From Buttiauxella sp. A111 (lineage in GTDB: Bacteria > Pseudomonadota > Gammaproteobacteria > Enterobacterales > Enterobacteriaceae): a stretch of DNA of 64,000 nt. A model generated the notes under the pieces. It ran no database searches. It saw only the letters and a program-made list of their open reading frames with translations, and was not told the origin of the DNA. The translations under genes and the position numbers were made by a program. How positions within the stretch are numbered: position 1 is the first letter of the stretch; each line of letters starts with the position of its first letter. Shown here in pieces: positions 8,321 through 18,564 of this stretch. The DNA lies in contig NZ_BJFN01000005.1 in assembly GCF_014189855.1 (NCBI RefSeq), forward strand, positions 310,001 to 374,000, read 5' to 3'.

Positions 8321-8389
8321 TGTGAGCACTGTCAGGTGGATAAATCGTTTTTTGCCACCCTCCACAGGATTTGGCATTACCACAAAGGT
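8321..8389 (+). promoter_or_regulatory. CRP site plus RhaS-type inverted half-sites, isomerase promoter
   Basis: CRP-like TGTGA-N6-TCAGG at 8321-8336, then a 17-bp half-site ending TTTTTTGCC (8340-8356), a 16-bp spacer, and an inverted half-site ending AAAGGT (8373-8389). The distance from the end of the CRP site to the end of the GCC is 20 bases, the same as at rhaB and rhaT in this window. Confidence 0.55.
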
Positions 8390-8444
8390 CGTCTGATGCC
8401 ATTCAGGCGATAGTCGATGCTTCTATTTTGCCTGGAGCATCATC

Positions 8445-9866
8445 ATGTCGCTTAATGTCGCCCTTTTCGGTATTGGACTCGATACCTACTGGCCGCAATT
8501 TTCAGGTCTTGAACAGCGCCTCACCGGTTATCTACAACACATCGACCAACGCCTCGCACAACTGAATGTTTCGGTGATTAATGGCGGGCTTATTGATAGC
8601 GTCGCCAAAGCCGATACCTTCGCCACACACCTCCAGCAGCAACCTGTTGATGCCATTGTGCTTTACATCAGCACCTATGCCCTGAGTTCTACCGTTTTGC
8701 CGCTGGTGCAGAAGATTAACAAGCCGGTGATTATTTTGGCTCTCCAGCCAGAATTGGGCCTGCCGTATGCAAAAATCCGCGATATGACTGACCGTGGTGA
8801 ACGCACCGGCGAGTGGCTGGCACATTGCCAGGCATGCAGCGCCCCGGAACTGGCAAACGTGTTCAATCGCGCGGGTATTCGCTACCAACTTATTGTCGGT
8901 GCACTAGAGGGCGACGAGCACGTCTGGCAGCAAACCGCGCAATGGTTACAAGCACTTGAGGTGCAACAAGGGCTGGCTGCGTGTCAGGTCGGCGTGCTGG
9001 GCCATTATTACGACGGGATGGTCGACGTTTACAGCAACATGACCAACCTGAGTGCAAAACTCGGCGTGCGGTTTAAGCCGCTGGAAATGTGCGAACTGGC
9101 GGAATACCGCGAGCAGGTCACGGCTGATGCTTGTGCCCAAAAATGGCAAGAAGTGGAAGCGTCGCTGCAAATTGACGCGGCGTGTGAAAAAGTCGAACTG
9201 CAACGTGCCGTGCAAACCGCCTGCGCCATGGACCAACTGATTGAAAAAAATCATCTCGGTGCGCTGGCTTATTACTATGAAGGGCGCAATGGCAACGCCT
9301 ACGAAAACATCATTACCTCGATTATTCTCGGCAACACGCTGCTCACCCAGCGCGGAATTCCGGTCGCCGGGGAGTATGAAATCAAAAACGTGCTGGCAAT
9401 GAAAATCCAGCAGTTGCTTGGCGCGGGTGGTTCGTTTTCTGAGCCATACGGCATTGAATTTGCCGATGACGTCGTGCTCTGGGGGCACGATGGCCCAGCG
9501 CATCCGCTGATGGCGCAAGGCAATGTGCGCCTTGTGCCGCTGCCGGTTTATCACGGCAAACCGGGCAAAGGCGTGTCAATTCAGATGACGGTCAAACCCG
9601 GCCCGGTGACATTCCTTTCCATCGTTGAAGATGCGCAAAACGGCGTGTGTTTGCAGTATGCCCACGGCGAAGCCGTTCCTGGCGACGTTCTGGATATCGG
9701 CAACACCAACAGCCGCTACCGCTTCCCGTTATCTGCGCGCGAGTTCACTACGCTCTGGAGCCTTGGTGGGCCTGCACACCATTGTGCAATTGGCCTCGGA
9801 CATCAGGGGGATATTCTGGAAAAACTGGCCTGGTTGCTGGGCGTGAAAACAGCAAAAATCTGTTAA
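8445..9866 (+). CDS. AraA/FucI-superfamily sugar isomerase, rhamnose-regulon candidate
   Basis: A 473-residue protein of the L-arabinose/L-fucose isomerase fold. Residues corresponding to the metal ligands of AraA can be picked out: Glu279 (YYYEG), Glu310 (AGEYE), His348 (WGHDG) and His445/446 (GGPAHH), with spacing much like the AraA set. Such enzymes use Mn2+ to interconvert aldoses and ketoses. The exact substrate is unknown to me, and the similarity to AraA itself is distant. It lies just upstream of rhaT on the same strand and carries a CRP plus RhaS-type site, so a role in using rhamnose or a related deoxy- or L-sugar is inferred. Absent from the E. coli rha locus. A stable hairpin follows the stop. 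Confidence 0.72.
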
Positions 9867-9918: not shown

Positions 9919-9988
9919 TGTGACTCCCGTCAATCGCACCCCCTGAATTTTGCCAGTTTTACCCCTGCTGCGGCAGCACATAGAAGGT
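9919..9988 (+). promoter_or_regulatory. CRP site plus RhaS-type half-sites, rhaT promoter
   Basis: TGTGA-N6-TCAAT at 9919-9934 resembles a CRP site. A half-site ending ATTTTGCC (9938-9954) and an inverted half-site ending AGAAGGT (9972-9988) follow, 17 bp apart. Both end blocks are identical to those of the rhaB promoter. Confidence 0.6.
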
Positions 9989-10075
9989 TCACTCGTTGCT
10001 CACTCTTTAGACTCGATGATTCGGGGTAGTGAGCTGTCACCCCTACGTTTTTTAGTTAAAACAGAGGGATAAATA

Positions 10076-11110
10076 ATGGATAACGCTATAACGATGGGGA
10101 TAATCTGGCATCTGGTGGGGGCAGCCAGTGCCGCTTGTTTTTACGCCCCTTTTAAGAAAGTACAGCACTGGTCATGGGAAACAATGTGGGCGGTGGGCGG
10201 TTTTGTCTCCTGGATAATATTGCCCTGGCTGGTCAGTTATCTTCTTTTACCTGATTTTTGGGCTTACTACGGTTCGTTTAATATATCTACCTTGCTGCCG
10301 GTGTTCCTGTTCGGCGCGATGTGGGGGATCGGCAATATCAACTACGGCCTGACGATGCGTTACCTGGGTATGTCGATGGGCATTGGTATCGCGATTGGCA
10401 TTACGCTTATCGTCGGCACCTTAATGACGCCAATTATTGCCGGAAAATTTGATGTACTGATTGGCACGCCAGGTGGGCGCATGACGCTGCTGGGCGTACT
10501 GGTTGCGCTGGTCGGCGTGGCGATTGTCACCCGCGCCGGGCAACTTAAAGAGCGCCAAATGGGCATTAAAGCCGAAGAATTTAACCTGAAAAAAGGGCTG
10601 GTTCTGGCAGTAATGTGCGGCATCTTCTCGGCGGGTATGTCTTTTGCGATGGACGCCGCAAAACCAATGCATGAAGCCGCTGCCGCGTTGGGCGTTGATC
10701 CGCTGTACGTTGCACTGCCAAGTTACGTCATCATCATGGGCGGTGGTGCGTTGATAAACCTGGGTTATTGCTTCATTCGTCTGGCAAAAATGCAAAACCT
10801 GTCGATAAAAGCCGACTTCTCACTGGCAAGACCGCTGATCATCAGCAACGTGCTGTTTGCCGCACTGGCCGGTTTGATGTGGTATCTGCAATTCTTCTTC
10901 TACGCCTGGGGTCACGCCAGAATTCCGGCACAGTACGACTACATGAGCTGGATGTTGCACATGAGTTTCTACGTGCTGTGTGGCGGGTTGGTTGGCTTGA
11001 TTATGAAAGAGTGGAAATCAGCAGGGACACGCCCAGTGGGCGTGTTGAGCGTGGGATGCGTGGTGATTATTATTGCCGCGAATATCGTCGGATTAGGTAT
11101 GGCGAACTGA
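10076..11110 (+). CDS. rhaT: L-rhamnose:H+ symporter
   Basis: A 344-residue inner-membrane protein with about ten hydrophobic helices, the same length as E. coli RhaT and close to it throughout ([14 protein letters not shown] near the start, [14 protein letters not shown] in the middle). It brings L-rhamnose and L-lyxose into the cytoplasm with a proton. AGGG precedes the ATG. It is transcribed away from sodA and towards rhaR, with its own CRP/RhaS-type control region. Two AT-rich genes separate it from rhaR, whereas the genes are neighbours in E. coli. Confidence 0.97.
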
Positions 11111-12757: not shown

Positions 12758-13606
12758 TTACACGTCAACCGCATACCTCTGGCGCCACATTCGTGGCGTC
12801 ATTCCTGTTTCTTTAGTAAACACCACCGAAAAGTAATTACTGTCCTCAAACCCGCAGCGGGTGGCGATATTCCCAACCAACAGCTCGCTATTGCGCAGTA
12901 AATCCTGTGCCTGGCAAATCCTTAGCTGGCGCAAATACTGGCTGATACTCATGCCGGTTTGCTGGCGGAAAAATTGGCGTAAATGGCGTTCTGCCACTTG
13001 GTGCTGCTGGCAAAACTGCGTCAGCTCAAAGGGCGTTTCGAGACTTTGCCCCAGCGCCGCCATTAGCAGATCCAATATCTCACTGCTGTCCGGCCCGGCT
13101 GCGTCCTGGGTTTGATAACGGTGGCGGCGCAACGTAATGCAAAGTTGTAGAAACAGGCTTTCGGTCAAACACAACGAGAGTGCATCGGGTTTCACGCTTT
13201 CGTGCTCCAGTTGCACGATTAACTGACGTGCTTGCGCCATGCCTTGGCTGGAAAGCCGCCATCGCGGATCTTTTCCCGCATCCCTCACGCTATGCAGTAA
13301 ATCATCCCAGTCGACATTGATTTTTAGCCGCTCAGGGCAATAGATGATGTTGTGCAAGACTAAACCGTTCACCGACTCGTAGCTGTGGCGGTCTTCAGCG
13401 CGAATATAAAACAGATCGCCGCAGGTAATGCGATAAGGGCGGTCGTTCAGCACATGCAGCCCATTGCCGCGCCACACCAAAACCAGCTCGCAGAAATCGT
13501 GGGTATGTTCGGCAAAAACATTTTGCGGATAGCGGTCTGCCACCGCCACGGGCTGCGCGGCAGAGACAAAGAAGTCTGCTTTTTTGAGGACTAAATGATT
13601 CGTCAC
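12758..13606 (-). CDS. rhaR: AraC-family transcriptional activator RhaR
   Basis: A 282-residue AraC/XylS regulator. The N-terminal cupin ([20 protein letters not shown]) binds L-rhamnose, and the C-terminal double helix-turn-helix (about residues 180-280, including [24 protein letters not shown]) binds DNA. In E. coli RhaR activates rhaSR when rhamnose is present. It follows rhaS on the minus strand with a 77-base gap. It reads closest to E. coli RhaR rather than RhaS in both domains. Confidence 0.94.
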
Positions 13607-13683: not shown

Positions 13684-14520
13684 TTACTGAAGTTCCGTGT
13701 CCCGTCCCTGACGAATCTCACGCGGGGACCAGGAAAACTCGCGCTTAAAAAGCGTCGAAAAATGGTTGCTGTCGCCAAAGCCGCATTGAAACGCGATATT
13801 CGTGACGCTTTCCTCGCCGTGGCGTAACAAATAGCGGGCCTTCATCAAACGTAAACGATTGAGATAACGCTGCGGCGTCATACCCGTTTGTTGTTTTAGC
13901 TGGCGATGCAGGGTGCGTAGGGAAAGTGTGAATTGCGATGCCAGCTGCTCCCAACAAATCTCTTCGGCGAAATGCTCTTCCAGCCAGGCCATCAACTGGT
14001 TTAATCGGCCTTCCGCGTTCGTCGCGCCTTCCATCATGCTGCCTTTGCGCAGCAAAACCAGCAACTGCATAAACAGGATTTCACGGTTAGCCACGGCGTG
14101 GGTATCCGCTGCTTCGCCAACCTGTTCGAACTGCTCGATCAATCCACGCACCTGTTGTAGCACTGGCTGGTTCACGCGCCAGTGCGACGGGTAATTGCCA
14201 TCTTGTTCTTGCGGCAGCAACTTATCCAGCCCGGACAAAAAGCAGAAGGCATCGGGTGCGCGATACAGAATATTGGTCAGACAGAGGTTTTCGGTGTGTT
14301 CGTATAAATGACGGTCGTGGTCACGCACAAAACAGACCGAGCCGCCGCTTAGCGTGTAGGGCTGGCCGTTAAAAACGTGTGTTCCGGTGCCGTGTTCAAC
14401 AATAACGATTTCATAAAAATCGTGGTGGTGTTCCGGGAATGCCCCCTGGGGTAAACGTGGCTCGATTGCCACGGATGAATGACCTGATGGGAAAAAATCA
14501 AAACCATGCAATACCGCCAT
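13684..14520 (-). CDS. rhaS: AraC-family activator RhaS of rhaBAD and rhaT
   Basis: A 278-residue AraC/XylS regulator matching E. coli RhaS (HDFFPSG-like start, [19 protein letters not shown] cupin strands, and [28 protein letters not shown] at the end). With rhamnose bound it activates rhaBAD and rhaT together with CRP. Two ATGs overlap at 14523 and 14520; the second gives the E. coli N-terminus and better spacing to the GGGGG upstream. Divergent from rhaB across a 300-base control region. Confidence 0.95.
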
Positions 14521-14695
14521 CATTACCCCCGGAACATTTTAATTGTCGATTGATAGTAAGTAACGAAGCTCCCCGTCACCTTAAAATTTCGACACGAAAT
14601 CAGTTAAAAATTGCACGTTTTTTAAGAAAGGGTGGGAATTATCAGGAAATGCGGCAAGCGTCACAGGCCGGTTTTTGGGGGTGTAAATATCAATC

Positions 14696-14765
14696 TGTGA
14701 CATAACTCACGTTCATCTTTGCCATTTTGCCAGCGGCTGATGGGGGCTGTCAGTGTCAAGAAGGT
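14696..14765 (+). promoter_or_regulatory. rhaB promoter: CRP site and RhaS inverted repeat
   Basis: CRP site TGTGA-CATAAC-TCACG at 14696-14711. RhaS half-sites lie at 14715-14731 (ATCTTTGCCATTTTGCC) and, inverted, at 14749-14765 (GTCAGTGTCAAGAAGGT), resembling the E. coli rhaBAD operator. They sit 57-107 bases before the ATG, a layout in keeping with the E. coli promoter. Confidence 0.78.
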
Positions 14766-14821
14766 GGGCGAGGGCGTTAGTTTTTAGAGTGGAGCCAATT
14801 AATTTAGCAAGGACCCCAAAA

Positions 14822-16294
14822 ATGACTCTACGCCACAGTGTTGCGGTAGACCTCGGTGCATCAAGTGGCCGTGTCATGCTGGCACGCTTTGAACGTGACT
14901 CCCGCAGCATCTGCCTGCGTGAGATTCATCGTTTCACCAACGACTTAAAACAGGCTGAGGGTTTCACCGTCTGGGACGTTGATGCGCTGGAGCATGAAAT
15001 CCGCACTGGCCTGCAAAAAGCCTGCGACGAAGGCATTAAAATCGACAGCATCGGTATCGATACCTGGGGTGTGGATTATGTGCTGATTGACCGTGAAGGC
15101 AATCGCGTTGGGCTGCCCGTGGCTTATCGTGATAGCCGCACCGATGGCGTGATGGATCTCGCTTTCAATCAGCTTGGCCGTGAAGATATTTACCGCCGCA
15201 CCGGCATTCAGTTTCTGCCGTTCAATACGCTTTACCAGCTCCGTGCGCTGGTCGAACAACAACCGGAGCTGCTTGATAAAGCCGAGCACGCGCTGTTGAT
15301 TCCCGACTATTTTTGCTACCGCCTGACGGGCGTGATGAACTGGGAATACACCAACGCCACCACTACGCAACTGGTCAATATCAACAGCGATAGCTGGGAT
15401 GAAACGCTGCTCGACTGGGCAGGTGTTCCACATAAATGGTTTGGTAAGCCAACACACCCAGGCCGCGTTATCGGCCAGTGGATTTGCCGCGAAGGCAACA
15501 AAATCCCGGTGGTGAGCGTTGCCACTCACGACACGGCCAGCGCAGTTATCGGTGCGCCGCTCAAAGACAAAGATGCCGCGTATCTCTCTTCCGGCACCTG
15601 GTCGCTGATGGGCTTTGAGAGCAAAACGCCTTACGCCAACAGCAAGGCATTAGCCGCCAACATCACCAACGAAGGTGGTGCGGAAGGGCGCTACCGTGTC
15701 CTGAAAAATATTATGGGACTGTGGTTATTGCAGCGTGTCACCAAAGAGCTGGGCATTACCGATCTTGCGGATCTCATCGATCGCACTAAACAGACGGCAG
15801 CCTGCAAGTTTGTCATCAATCCAAATGACGATCGTTTTATTAATCCTGAAAGCATGAGCCGTGAAATTCAGGTGGCATGCCGTGAAAGCAACCAGCCGGT
15901 TCCGTTCACTGATAACGAACTCGCACGCTGTATTTTCGACAGCCTGGCACTGCTGTATGCCAAAACGCTGGAAGAACTGGCCGCCGTTCGTGGTCGCCCG
16001 TTTAGCTGCCTGCACATTGTGGGTGGCGGCAGCCAGAACGAATTACTCAACCAACTTTGCGCCGATGCCTGCGGTATTCCGGTGCTTGCCGGGCCGATTG
16101 AGGCCTCAACGCTTGGCAATATCGGCTGCCAGTTAATGGCGCTGGACGAAATTACTGATGTCGACGACTTCCGAAAAATTGTCGCTGCCAGCTATCAACT
16201 GAAATCTTTTAACCCCGAAACCGACAGCGAAATTGCCCGTTATATCGAGCAGTTGCCGCTGAATATTCAAACACGAAAGGAGTTTTGCGCATGA
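14822..16294 (+). CDS. rhaB: Rhamnulokinase
   Basis: A 490-residue FGGY-family sugar kinase. [18 protein letters not shown] near the start is the phosphate-binding motif, and [16 protein letters not shown] and [12 protein letters not shown] come from the second domain. It phosphorylates L-rhamnulose to L-rhamnulose 1-phosphate with ATP in the cytoplasm. The frame opens further upstream at 14753, but 14822 gives the family N-terminus and has AAGGA just before it. The last codon overlaps the rhaA start (ATGA), showing coupled translation. Confidence 0.97.
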
Positions 16295-17550
16295 CCACAT
16301 CTCTTGAAACAGCCTGGGAACTGGCAAAACAGCGCTTTGCTGCTGTCGGTGTTGACGTTGAAGCCGCACTACTTCAGCTCGACCGCCTGCCGGTTTCGAT
16401 GCACTGCTGGCAGGGCGATGACGTCGCGGGCTTTGAAAACCCAGAAGGCGCGCTGAGCGGTGGGATTCAGGCTACGGGGAATTACCCGGGCAAAGCGCGT
16501 AATGCCGATGAGCTACGCTCTGACCTGGAACGCGCATTAAGCCTGATTCCGGGCCCAAAACGCCTGAATCTGCACGCCATTTATCTGGAATCTGAGCAGC
16601 CGGTTTCGCGCGACAAGATCGAACCTAAGCATTTTAAAAACTGGGTGGAGTGGGCGAAAGCGAACAAATTAGGACTGGATTTCAACCCATCCTGTTTCTC
16701 GCACCCGTTAAGCGCCGACGGCTTTACGCTGTCCCACGCTAACGATGAAATTCGCCAGTTCTGGATTGACCACGTTAAAGCAAGCCGCAAAATTTCTGCG
16801 TACTTTGGCGAGCAGCTGGGCACGCCGTCAGTGATGAACATCTGGGTCCCGGATGGCATGAAAGACATCACCATTGACCGTCTGGCACCACGTCAACGCC
16901 TGGTGGCCGCGCTGGATGAAGCGATGAGCGAAAAACTCAATCCGGCACACCATATCGACGCAGTAGAAAGCAAACTGTTCGGCATTGGAGCGGAAAGCTA
17001 CACCGTCGGCTCCAACGAATTCTATTTCGGTTACGCGACCAGCCGCCAGACTGCGCTGTGTCTGGATGCCGGGCACTTCCACCCGACCGAAGTTATCTCT
17101 GACAAAATTTCCAGCGCCATGCTGTATGTGCCGCGCCTGCTGCTGCACGTGAGCCGTCCGGTGCGTTGGGATAGCGACCACGTCGTGCTGCTGGATGACG
17201 AAACGCAAGCGATCGCCAGCGAAATTATCCGCCACGACCTGTTCGATCGCGTTCATATCGGTCTGGATTTCTTCGATGCCTCGATCAACCGCATCGCTGC
17301 GTGGGTTATCGGCACTCGCAATATGAAGAAAGCATTGCTGCGTGCGTTGCTGGAACCGACCGAAACCCTGCGCCAACTGGAACTTGAAGGCGATTACACC
17401 GCTCGTCTGGCCCTGCTGGAAGAGCAAAAATCACTGCCATGGGCGGCGGTCTGGGAAATGTATTGCCAGCGCAACGACACACCGGTTGATGCCCAGTGGC
17501 TGAAGACCGTGCGCGGTTACGAGAAAGACGTGTTGAGCCAGCGCGGTTAA
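16291..17550 (+). CDS. rhaA: L-rhamnose isomerase
   Basis: A 419-residue TIM-barrel isomerase, the same length as E. coli RhaA and very similar throughout. Metal-site segments such as [13 protein letters not shown] and [12 protein letters not shown] are intact. It converts L-rhamnose to L-rhamnulose using Mn2+. The start at 16291 overlaps the rhaB stop by four bases and has AAAGGAG about 9 bases before it; the ATG-like codon two residues earlier is not needed. The repeat element at 17562-17708 follows before rhaD. Confidence 0.97.
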
Positions 17551-17739: not shown

Positions 17740-18564
17740 ATGCAGAACATCCTTAACGCCTGGTTTGTAGAAGGCATGATCAAAGCAACTAGCGATGCCT
17801 GGCTGAAAGGTTGGGACGAGCGCAACGGCGGCAACATCACGATGCGCCTGGATGAATCAGACATCGCCCCTTTCCAGGCTGACTTCCACGCCGCACCGCG
17901 CTATATCGCTCTGAGCCAGCCAATGCCTGAGCTGGCGAATACGCCGTTTATCGTTACCGGCTCCGGTAAATTCTTCCGCAACGTGCAGCTTGCTCCGGCG
18001 GAAAACATTGGCGTGGTTAAAGTGGACAACCACGGTAAGGGCTATCACATTTTGTGGGGGCTGGAGAACGAAGCGGTGCCAACGTCTGAACTGGCAGCAC
18101 ACTTCCAGTCGCACAGCGTGCGCATCAAAACCACCGGCGGTAAAGACCGTGTCATTATGCATTGCCACGCCACCAACCTGATTGCCCTGACTTACGTGTT
18201 GGAAAACCGCACCGACGTCATCACCCGCAAACTGTGGGAAGGCAGCACCGAATGTCTGGTGGTGTTCCCGGATGGTGTCGGCATTCTGCCGTGGATGGTG
18301 CCAGGGACTGATGAAATTGGTAACGCGACCGCTGACGAAATGGCAAAACATTCGCTGGTGTTGTGGCCTTTCCATGGCGTGTTTGGTAGCGGCCCAACGC
18401 TTGATGAAGCGTTTGGTCTTATCGATACCGCAGAGAAGTCCGCTGAAGTGTTGGTAAAAGTTATTTCCATGGGCGGCATGAAACAAACCATCAGCCGCGA
18501 CGAACTTATCGCGCTCGGCAAACGCTTTGGAGTGACCCCATTGGCCAGTGCGTTAGAACTTTGA
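17740..18564 (+). CDS. rhaD: Rhamnulose-1-phosphate aldolase
   Basis: A 274-residue class II aldolase. The zinc ligands His141, His143 (HCHATNL) and His212 and the catalytic Glu117 are at the E. coli positions. It splits L-rhamnulose 1-phosphate to dihydroxyacetone phosphate and L-lactaldehyde. AAAGGA precedes the ATG. It is separated from rhaA by a 147-bp palindromic repeat and followed by a second one, so message level may differ from rhaBA. Confidence 0.97.

Follow-up and report, generated by a model that had tools for sequence, protein, structure and literature searches.

The gene at 8445-9866 of the window (the whole stretch of DNA analysed, 64,000 nucleotides of Buttiauxella sp. A111), here called ISO, is strongly supported by its promoter sequence as a member of the RhaS/CRP regulon. 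On balance, we regard its product as an accessory aldose-ketose isomerase of this regulon, which would convert a second sugar, imported alongside L-rhamnose, to a ketose for RhaB and RhaD. Few sugar pathways have been studied as thoroughly as that for rhamnose, and RhaS promoters are widely used in the laboratory; ISO has probably been overlooked as an accessory enzyme in the use of rhamnose-type sugars. In the parts of the open-access literature that we covered, it was not found as a RhaS target, as a rhamnose-associated isomerase or with an assigned substrate. If correct, the assignment would extend the RhaS regulon, give a function to the proteins of this family, which are currently annotated as 'L-fucose/L-arabinose isomerase family' or 'arabinose isomerase', and point to an enzyme acting on rare L-sugars and deoxy-sugars, compounds that are useful in biocatalysis.

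The ISO promoter and its counterparts at rhaT and rhaB

The genes of the window are arranged in the order sodA(-), ISO(+), rhaT(+), two ORFs, rhaR(-), rhaS(-), rhaB, rhaA, rhaD and an iron-type alcohol dehydrogenase(+), with sodA and the dehydrogenase named from reading of the ORFs (Table 1). The genome comprises 4.89 Mb, and the closest relatives of ISO, among the matches listed and in the tree, are from Buttiauxella species. ISO is intact and under purifying selection, with dN/dS values of 0.04-0.11 against seven orthologues. In E. coli K-12, rhaT directly adjoins sodA without ISO in between, and a blastn search found ISO in none of 5,426 E. coli genomes. An insertion specific to the strain may account for the two ORFs that separate rhaT from rhaR: the one at 11305-12228 matches no Pfam family and has no equivalent in the ORFs of 80 related loci, and the one at 12231-12716 matches DUF1240.

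Table 1. Promoter elements and genes around ISO, in positions of the window.
Feature	Position	Strand	Basis or details
ISO CRP-like site (TGTGA-N6-TCAGG), TGTGAGCACTGTCAGG	8321-8336	+	sequence; model score C=13.7
ISO RhaS half-site 1, ATAAATCGTTTTTTGCC	8340-8356	+	sequence, weight matrix, joint model
ISO RhaS half-site 2, inverted, GGCATTACCACAAAGGT, after 16-base spacer	8373-8389	+	sequence, matrix, joint model
ISO -10-like hexamer GATAGT	8409-8414	+	19 bases after half-site 2; outside box-finding model
ISO, predicted metal-dependent aldose-ketose isomerase, L-arabinose isomerase fold, 473 aa	8445-9866	+	profiles, alignment, predicted structure
rhaT promoter	9919-10013	+	CRP 9919-9934 TGTGACTCCCGTCAAT, half-sites 9938-9954 and 9972-9988, -10 10008-10013
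rhaT, L-rhamnose/proton symporter	10076-11110	+	PF06379 719.6 bits, NF010021 716 bits
rhaR, activator	12758-13606	-	NF010026 432 bits, cut-off 363
rhaS, proposed ISO activator	13684-14523	-	NF010028 513.7 bits, cut-off 288
rhaB promoter	14696-14790	+	CRP 14696-14711 TGTGACATAACTCACG, half-sites 14715-14731 and 14749-14765, -10 14785-14790
rhaB, rhamnulokinase	14823-16294	+	TIGR02627 766 bits, over cut-off; ATG start chosen, ORF from 14753
rhaA, L-rhamnose isomerase	16294-17550	+	PF06134 768 bits, TIGR01748 791 bits
rhaD, rhamnulose-1-phosphate aldolase	17740-18564	+	TIGR02624 445.7 bits, cut-off 401

As an earlier note on this DNA had described, the promoters of ISO, rhaT and rhaB each carry a CRP-like site whose end lies exactly 20 bases from the end of a TTTTGCC half-site, followed by an inverted half-site that ends in AAGGT after a spacer of 16 bases (ISO) or 17 bases (rhaT, rhaB). 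In addition, all three have a -10 hexamer with four of six consensus matches exactly 19 bases past half-site 2. E. coli rhaB and rhaT follow the same plan (CRP site, 3 bases, half-site, 16/17 bases, half-site, 19 bases, -10), including the 20 bases to the half-site end. The mark of this regulon, a pair of inverted 17-base RhaS half-sites with 16-17 bases between them in front of the gene, is present at ISO. With the RhaS regulon (rhaBAD, rhaT, rhiTN) it shares the CRP site, the half-site pair and the -10 at +19; excerpts of Rodionova et al. (2013; PMC3870299) do not name ISO as a target.

The composite pattern TGTGA-N27-TGCC-N16/17-GNCA-N8-AAGG matched exactly three times in the 4,889,549 bases of the whole genome, namely at ISO, rhaT and rhaB, and the same pattern read backwards as a control gave no match, which agrees with the earlier judgement that the shared spacing is unlikely by chance. 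A weight matrix built from 35 rhaB/rhaT promoters, with ISO promoters excluded, gave its top scores in the window at rhaT (41.1) and rhaB (40.9); the next independent place was ISO with 18.5 bits, a far weaker box. Once shifted and reversed versions of these rhaT and rhaB sites are set aside, the sole other score above 10.5 was 16.6 at 14250(-), within the rhaS coding sequence. The ISO CRP site also matches poorly in its right half, which reads TCAGG instead of TCACA. In a joint model, the ISO promoter of the window scored 34.8, between the E. coli K-12 promoters of rhaB (50.0) and rhaT (18.3), both of which were held out of the model. Because the joint model uses the CRP score in choosing the place, CRP at unlinked loci is not independent evidence, whereas the -10 hexamer is; the null fractions of the joint-score test are conservative, since the null contains true rha sites. 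A chance match as origin of the ISO box was rejected on the matrix scan, the genome-wide pattern count and the shuffles.

A whole-genome scan with the spacer fixed at 17 bases and up to two mismatches allowed added one place with one mismatch and four with two mismatches, against four for the reversed control. The one-mismatch site (C1:504215-504283; L106, L112) lies before the gene of a GPH-type symporter, which is followed by a GH88 hydrolase. Excerpts of the same paper (PMC3870299) give rhiTN as a RhaS target shown in Erwinia chrysanthemi. As the symporter/GH88 pair resembles rhiTN, the scan seems to have picked up a target of a known type, and by its sequence the pair probably forms another rhiTN-type operon under RhaS in this genome. 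The -10 at +19 of this rhiT-like promoter has three of six consensus matches only, which is no good match.

We propose that rhamnose-bound RhaS would occupy the two inverted half-sites of ISO and, aided by CRP just upstream, would direct RNA polymerase to the ISO -10 box. ISO would then be made together with RhaT and RhaBAD.

The RhaS layout in orthologous promoters

A loss of the half-sites from orthologous promoters, which the earlier note had weighed against its own proposal, was not observed in loci of the same synteny. The order sodA-ISO-rhaT is found in Buttiauxella, a Citrobacter group and Atlantibacter, and in all 17 distinct promoters of these loci the box lies 104-107 bases before the start codon. 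A -10 hexamer with at least four of six matches stands at +19 in 17/17 (the next best offset between 8 and 33 was 30, with 5/17), and TGYGA is present at the CRP position in 16, L015 being the one without it. This record, titled 'Citrobacter freundii M-21', groups with Atlantibacter and its title looks wrong.

A second enterobacterial lineage of ISO, 62-64% identical, is located away from rhaBAD. Of its 16 loci, 13 are beside pgi and two (L090, L028) adjoin a RhaT-like gene; L029 shows neither arrangement. The loci represent 12 distinct promoters, as L088, L089 and L094 equal L030, L027 and L032 in the promoter and L091, which also has a -10 at +19, was merged as a near copy of L026. Nine of the 12 promoters beat all 200 shuffles, and the other three were beaten by 1, 4 and 6 of 200. 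The -10 at +19 was found in 9/12, and no other offset between 8 and 33 exceeded 2/12. In the tree, the syntenic group and the pgi-locus group are separate with a support of 100/98 each, and the Oxalobacteraceae and Cohaesibacter sequences join the second lineage (99/86 and 92/82). Since the layout stands at different loci in two separate lineages, RhaS control would have been kept or gained in both. One further locus, L031, titled as a 'Chryseobacterium' contig, is of the Enterobacteriaceae type, and this title looks wrong as well.

Two plasmid-borne Pantoea copies of the second lineage have box scores of 29.9 and 17.9, which none of 200 shuffles reached, and no good -10 at +19. On a Pantoea agglomerans plasmid (L099 7524-13416), ISO has a RhaS-like box and is a neighbour of dsr1, an anti-phage gene; the regulation of a Pantoea plasmid copy would need chromosomal RhaS in trans.

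Outside the Enterobacterales, all seven promoters tested scored like shuffles, namely the plasmid copies of Rhizobium, Sinorhizobium, Devosia and Deinococcus (n=4) and the promoters from Oxalobacteraceae (L024), a spirochaete (L035) and Cohaesibacter (L036). The Rahnella boxes are visible by eye, with TAGACT at +19, and did not rise above shuffles (equalled or exceeded by 59 and 90 of 200). No RhaS box was detected at ISO of Yersinia aldovae (46/200 shuffles as high) and Raoultella (88-168 of 200). In Hafnia, ISO directly follows rhaT and has no box of its own; the rhaT promoter has one. The prediction of the earlier note that ISO is under RhaS and CRP is thus strongly backed by the spacing, the genome-wide uniqueness, the conservation in orthologues, the recurrence at unlinked loci and the negative controls.

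Predicted fold and family of ISO

A single-sequence search of solved structures with ISO gave no match at E 0.1. A profile of 45 aligned sequences, consisting of the window ISO, 43 relatives and one Raoultella paralogue, matched E. coli L-arabinose isomerase with E 4e-15. The AF2 model of ISO (pLDDT 93, pTM 0.93) had AraA as its closest structure (E. coli 2ajt/4f2d; Foldseek E ~1e-30, VIA Z 36, rmsd 2.9 over 455 residues, ~16% identity), followed by FucI (1fui; Z 29). Four residues of ISO, E310, E333, H348 and H446, are invariant in the 45 sequences and align with E306, E333, H350 and H450 of AraA, which we take to be its catalytic/metal residues. In our reading, ISO would be an active metal-dependent aldose-ketose isomerase of the L-arabinose isomerase fold.

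In contrast to this likeness in overall fold, ISO passes no curated cut-off of the known families. It reached 39 bits with the AraA equivalog NF002795 (cut-off 622), from which it also differs by its RhaS/CRP promoter and rha neighbourhood. Its best curated match, the equivalog NF048012 for the sulfoquinovose isomerase SftI, is of similar length (443 model positions), but the 49.3 bits are far under the cut-off of 700. ISO is about 120 residues shorter than the L-fucose isomerase FucI and scored 23.4 bits with Pfam Fucose_iso_C, where the gathering score is 29.3. The family models of RhaA and RhaI gave no match at E 0.001. The identity of ISO with AraA, FucI or SftI proper was therefore rejected, as the curated cut-offs are missed. 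We read it, from profiles and predicted structure, as a family of its own inside the L-arabinose isomerase fold; the former description as an 'AraA/FucI-like enzyme' holds for the predicted fold and fails for the curated families.

Occurrence with rhamnose genes and possible substrates

At least 563 relatives of ISO exist, of which we looked at the best 80, 13 others and plasmid records. The genome counts refer to the 49 ISO genomes from the best 80 of these at least 563 relatives, with L076 set aside. RhaA was over the cut-off in 28/49 and the remaining 21 had a RhaI match; one of these 21 matches exceeded the strict TIGR02629 cut-off and the others were at 335-532 bits. The RhaI search covered the 21 RhaA-less genomes and two RhaA-positive controls (0/2). 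The RhaT family was found in 23/23 ISO genomes tested. ISO as a replacement for a missing rhamnose isomerase was rejected on the RhaA or RhaI match in all 49 genomes, and the role of ISO as an accessory to RhaA/RhaI is well supported by this genomic pattern. In the window, too, RhaA is present, as had been pointed out before.

At the family level, ISO was found in 14/198 Enterobacteriaceae genomes, and RhaA in 14/14 of those versus 89/198 overall. In Flavobacteriaceae, 13/199 genomes have ISO, and all 13 have RhaI (46/199 overall) and RhaT (22/199); here, the count takes in the 13 of 15 matches that are at least 62% identical and leaves out two at 39% and 31%. The co-occurrence p-values were 7e-6, 1e-9 and 6e-15, ignoring shared ancestry. 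The gene is hence not one of rha-less genomes mainly, the other finding that the earlier note had held against its proposal. Altogether, the isomerase family accompanies rhamnose genes in several phyla.

Among the best 80 of the at least 563 relatives, 64 loci are outside the sodA-rhaT synteny. RhaT genes or alpha-L-rhamnosidase genes (GH106 or GH78-type) are within reach in 36 of them (RhaT in 20, GH106 in 22, GH78-type in 21) and RhaT is directly adjacent in eight; the other 28 have none of the three. The labels 'GH106' and 'GH78-type' rest on one representative each (PF17132, PF17389). In the genome of the window, PF17389 (GH78 catalytic domain) gave one match below and none over the cut-off. 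In Deinococcus sp. AJ005, ISO is at the end of a run of rhaM and ABC transporter genes, which is divergent from rhaI, a bifunctional aldolase/dehydrogenase and a rhamnulokinase. ISO is thus found in the regulon of RhaA here, or beside the RhaI operon as in Deinococcus, but lacks a match to either family model and is additional to one of them in 49/49 genomes.

As ISO is accompanied by RhaA or RhaI in all 49 genomes examined, often has RhaT near and carries the rhamnose switch in much of Enterobacterales, it would most simply supply a ketose to RhaB and RhaD. A second sugar would enter with rhamnose via RhaT or another importer and be converted by ISO, which would be no replacement for the rhamnose isomerase. 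If RhaB and RhaD already take the resulting ketose, ISO needs no kinase or aldolase of its own. The genomic pattern (RhaA/RhaI in 49/49, RhaT near in 20/64) is compatible with the earlier suggestion that ISO acts on a different sugar imported by RhaT, and the substrate itself is the conjectural part of this suggestion. AraA, FucI and SftI act on aldoses with opposite hydroxyls at C2 and C3 (C2,C3-threo). RhaA and RhaI act on aldoses with both hydroxyls on the same side, L-rhamnose being C2,C3-erythro. Given the threo preference of the first group, ISO would act on C2-epimers of RhaA substrates. By this analogy we favour the C2-epimers of rhamnose-type sugars as substrates, with 6-deoxy-L-glucose first and L-glucose and L-xylose in the same class. 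The ketose of 6-deoxy-L-glucose is the same as that of L-rhamnose; its low natural abundance counts against it.

More tentatively, this widespread AraA-fold family without a name might complement RhaA/RhaI by the opposite C2 preference and so form an epimerisation shunt, through which bacteria that use rhamnose would also use L-gluco and L-xylo sugars via RhaT, RhaB and RhaD, with RhaS sites in at least two enterobacterial lineages. Such a shunt would run L-rhamnose - L-rhamnulose - 6-deoxy-L-glucose, with parallel shunts L-mannose - L-fructose - L-glucose and L-lyxose - L-xylulose - L-xylose.

The main rival, which we consider rather unlikely, takes ISO as a second, unrelated L-rhamnose isomerase, an isozyme of RhaA/RhaI for another metal, temperature or substrate level. 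It would account for the layout common to ISO, rhaBAD and rhaT, for the alpha-L-rhamnosidase and RhaT genes within reach in many Bacteroidota loci and for the single-sequence search (E 1e-4), in which a RhaB- or RhaD-like gene was found in none of the 64 non-syntenic loci. A RhaA-like ORF was found in none of these loci either. The 49/49 genomes which already have a RhaA or RhaI match, none having ISO alone, argue against it, as does the threo preference of the AraA/FucI fold versus the erythro configuration of L-rhamnose.

We give still less weight to a sugar that is co-released with rhamnose and has its own fate (e.g. L-fucose, L-galactose or an O-methyl sugar), the regulon link then being due to shared plant or algal polymers. 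Clusters with sulfatases, GH106, GH78-type genes and an enolase-superfamily protein are consistent with this idea, and so is the FucI-like fold of the ISO model. By eye, FGGY-type kinases were seen near ISO in L039, L068 (next to a xylose-isomerase-like gene) and L071 (next to one resembling RhaI); the single-sequence search therefore misses distant kinases, and a partner kinase is not absent everywhere in the ISO family. Against a separate fate, the neighbour clusters that recur outside rha synteny yielded no recognisable kinase or aldolase, a count in which distant kinases could be missed. That the arrangement is a functionless remnant of a duplicated rhaT promoter, as the place of ISO directly between sodA and rhaT might suggest, is highly improbable and a copy of that promoter was rejected as the source of the box, since the two promoters differ in spacer length (16 vs 17) and in the sequences of half-sites and -10, and since the layout is kept across genera and in orthologues at unlinked loci.

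The accessory role in rhamnose-type sugar use, our preferred reading, may not extend to the whole family. In Yersinia aldovae and Raoultella, where ISO has no RhaS box, its neighbours are polyol- or sugar-type MFS transporters and dehydrogenases, and part of the family may therefore serve other sugars. The neighbours in Y. aldovae are an RbtT/DalT-type transporter and a GolD/DthD-type dehydrogenase. The Raoultella run (L021 8090-14498, L022, L034) comprises a RhaR-like regulator, ISO, a second isomerase (a paralogue with 30% identity), a sugar porter and a zinc dehydrogenase. Rhizobial loci and several from spirochaetes have mainly a transporter and an AraC regulator; beside the rhizobial copies the transporter is of the ABC type, and Devosia and S. 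meliloti have a CocE-type hydrolase there as well. On pSymB of Sinorhizobium meliloti (L102 7718-18768), the run of AraC regulator, ISO, ABC transporter and CocE-type hydrolase adjoins apparent sugar-nucleotide genes, as judged by ORF reading. The link to rhamnose may extend past the close ISO family, since the two distant paralogues left out of the Flavobacteriaceae count also have rhamnose genes nearby: the one with 31% identity (G266:C48:16886-19301) adjoins a RhaT gene and the one with 39% (G294:C14:243920-252240) is near RhaI.
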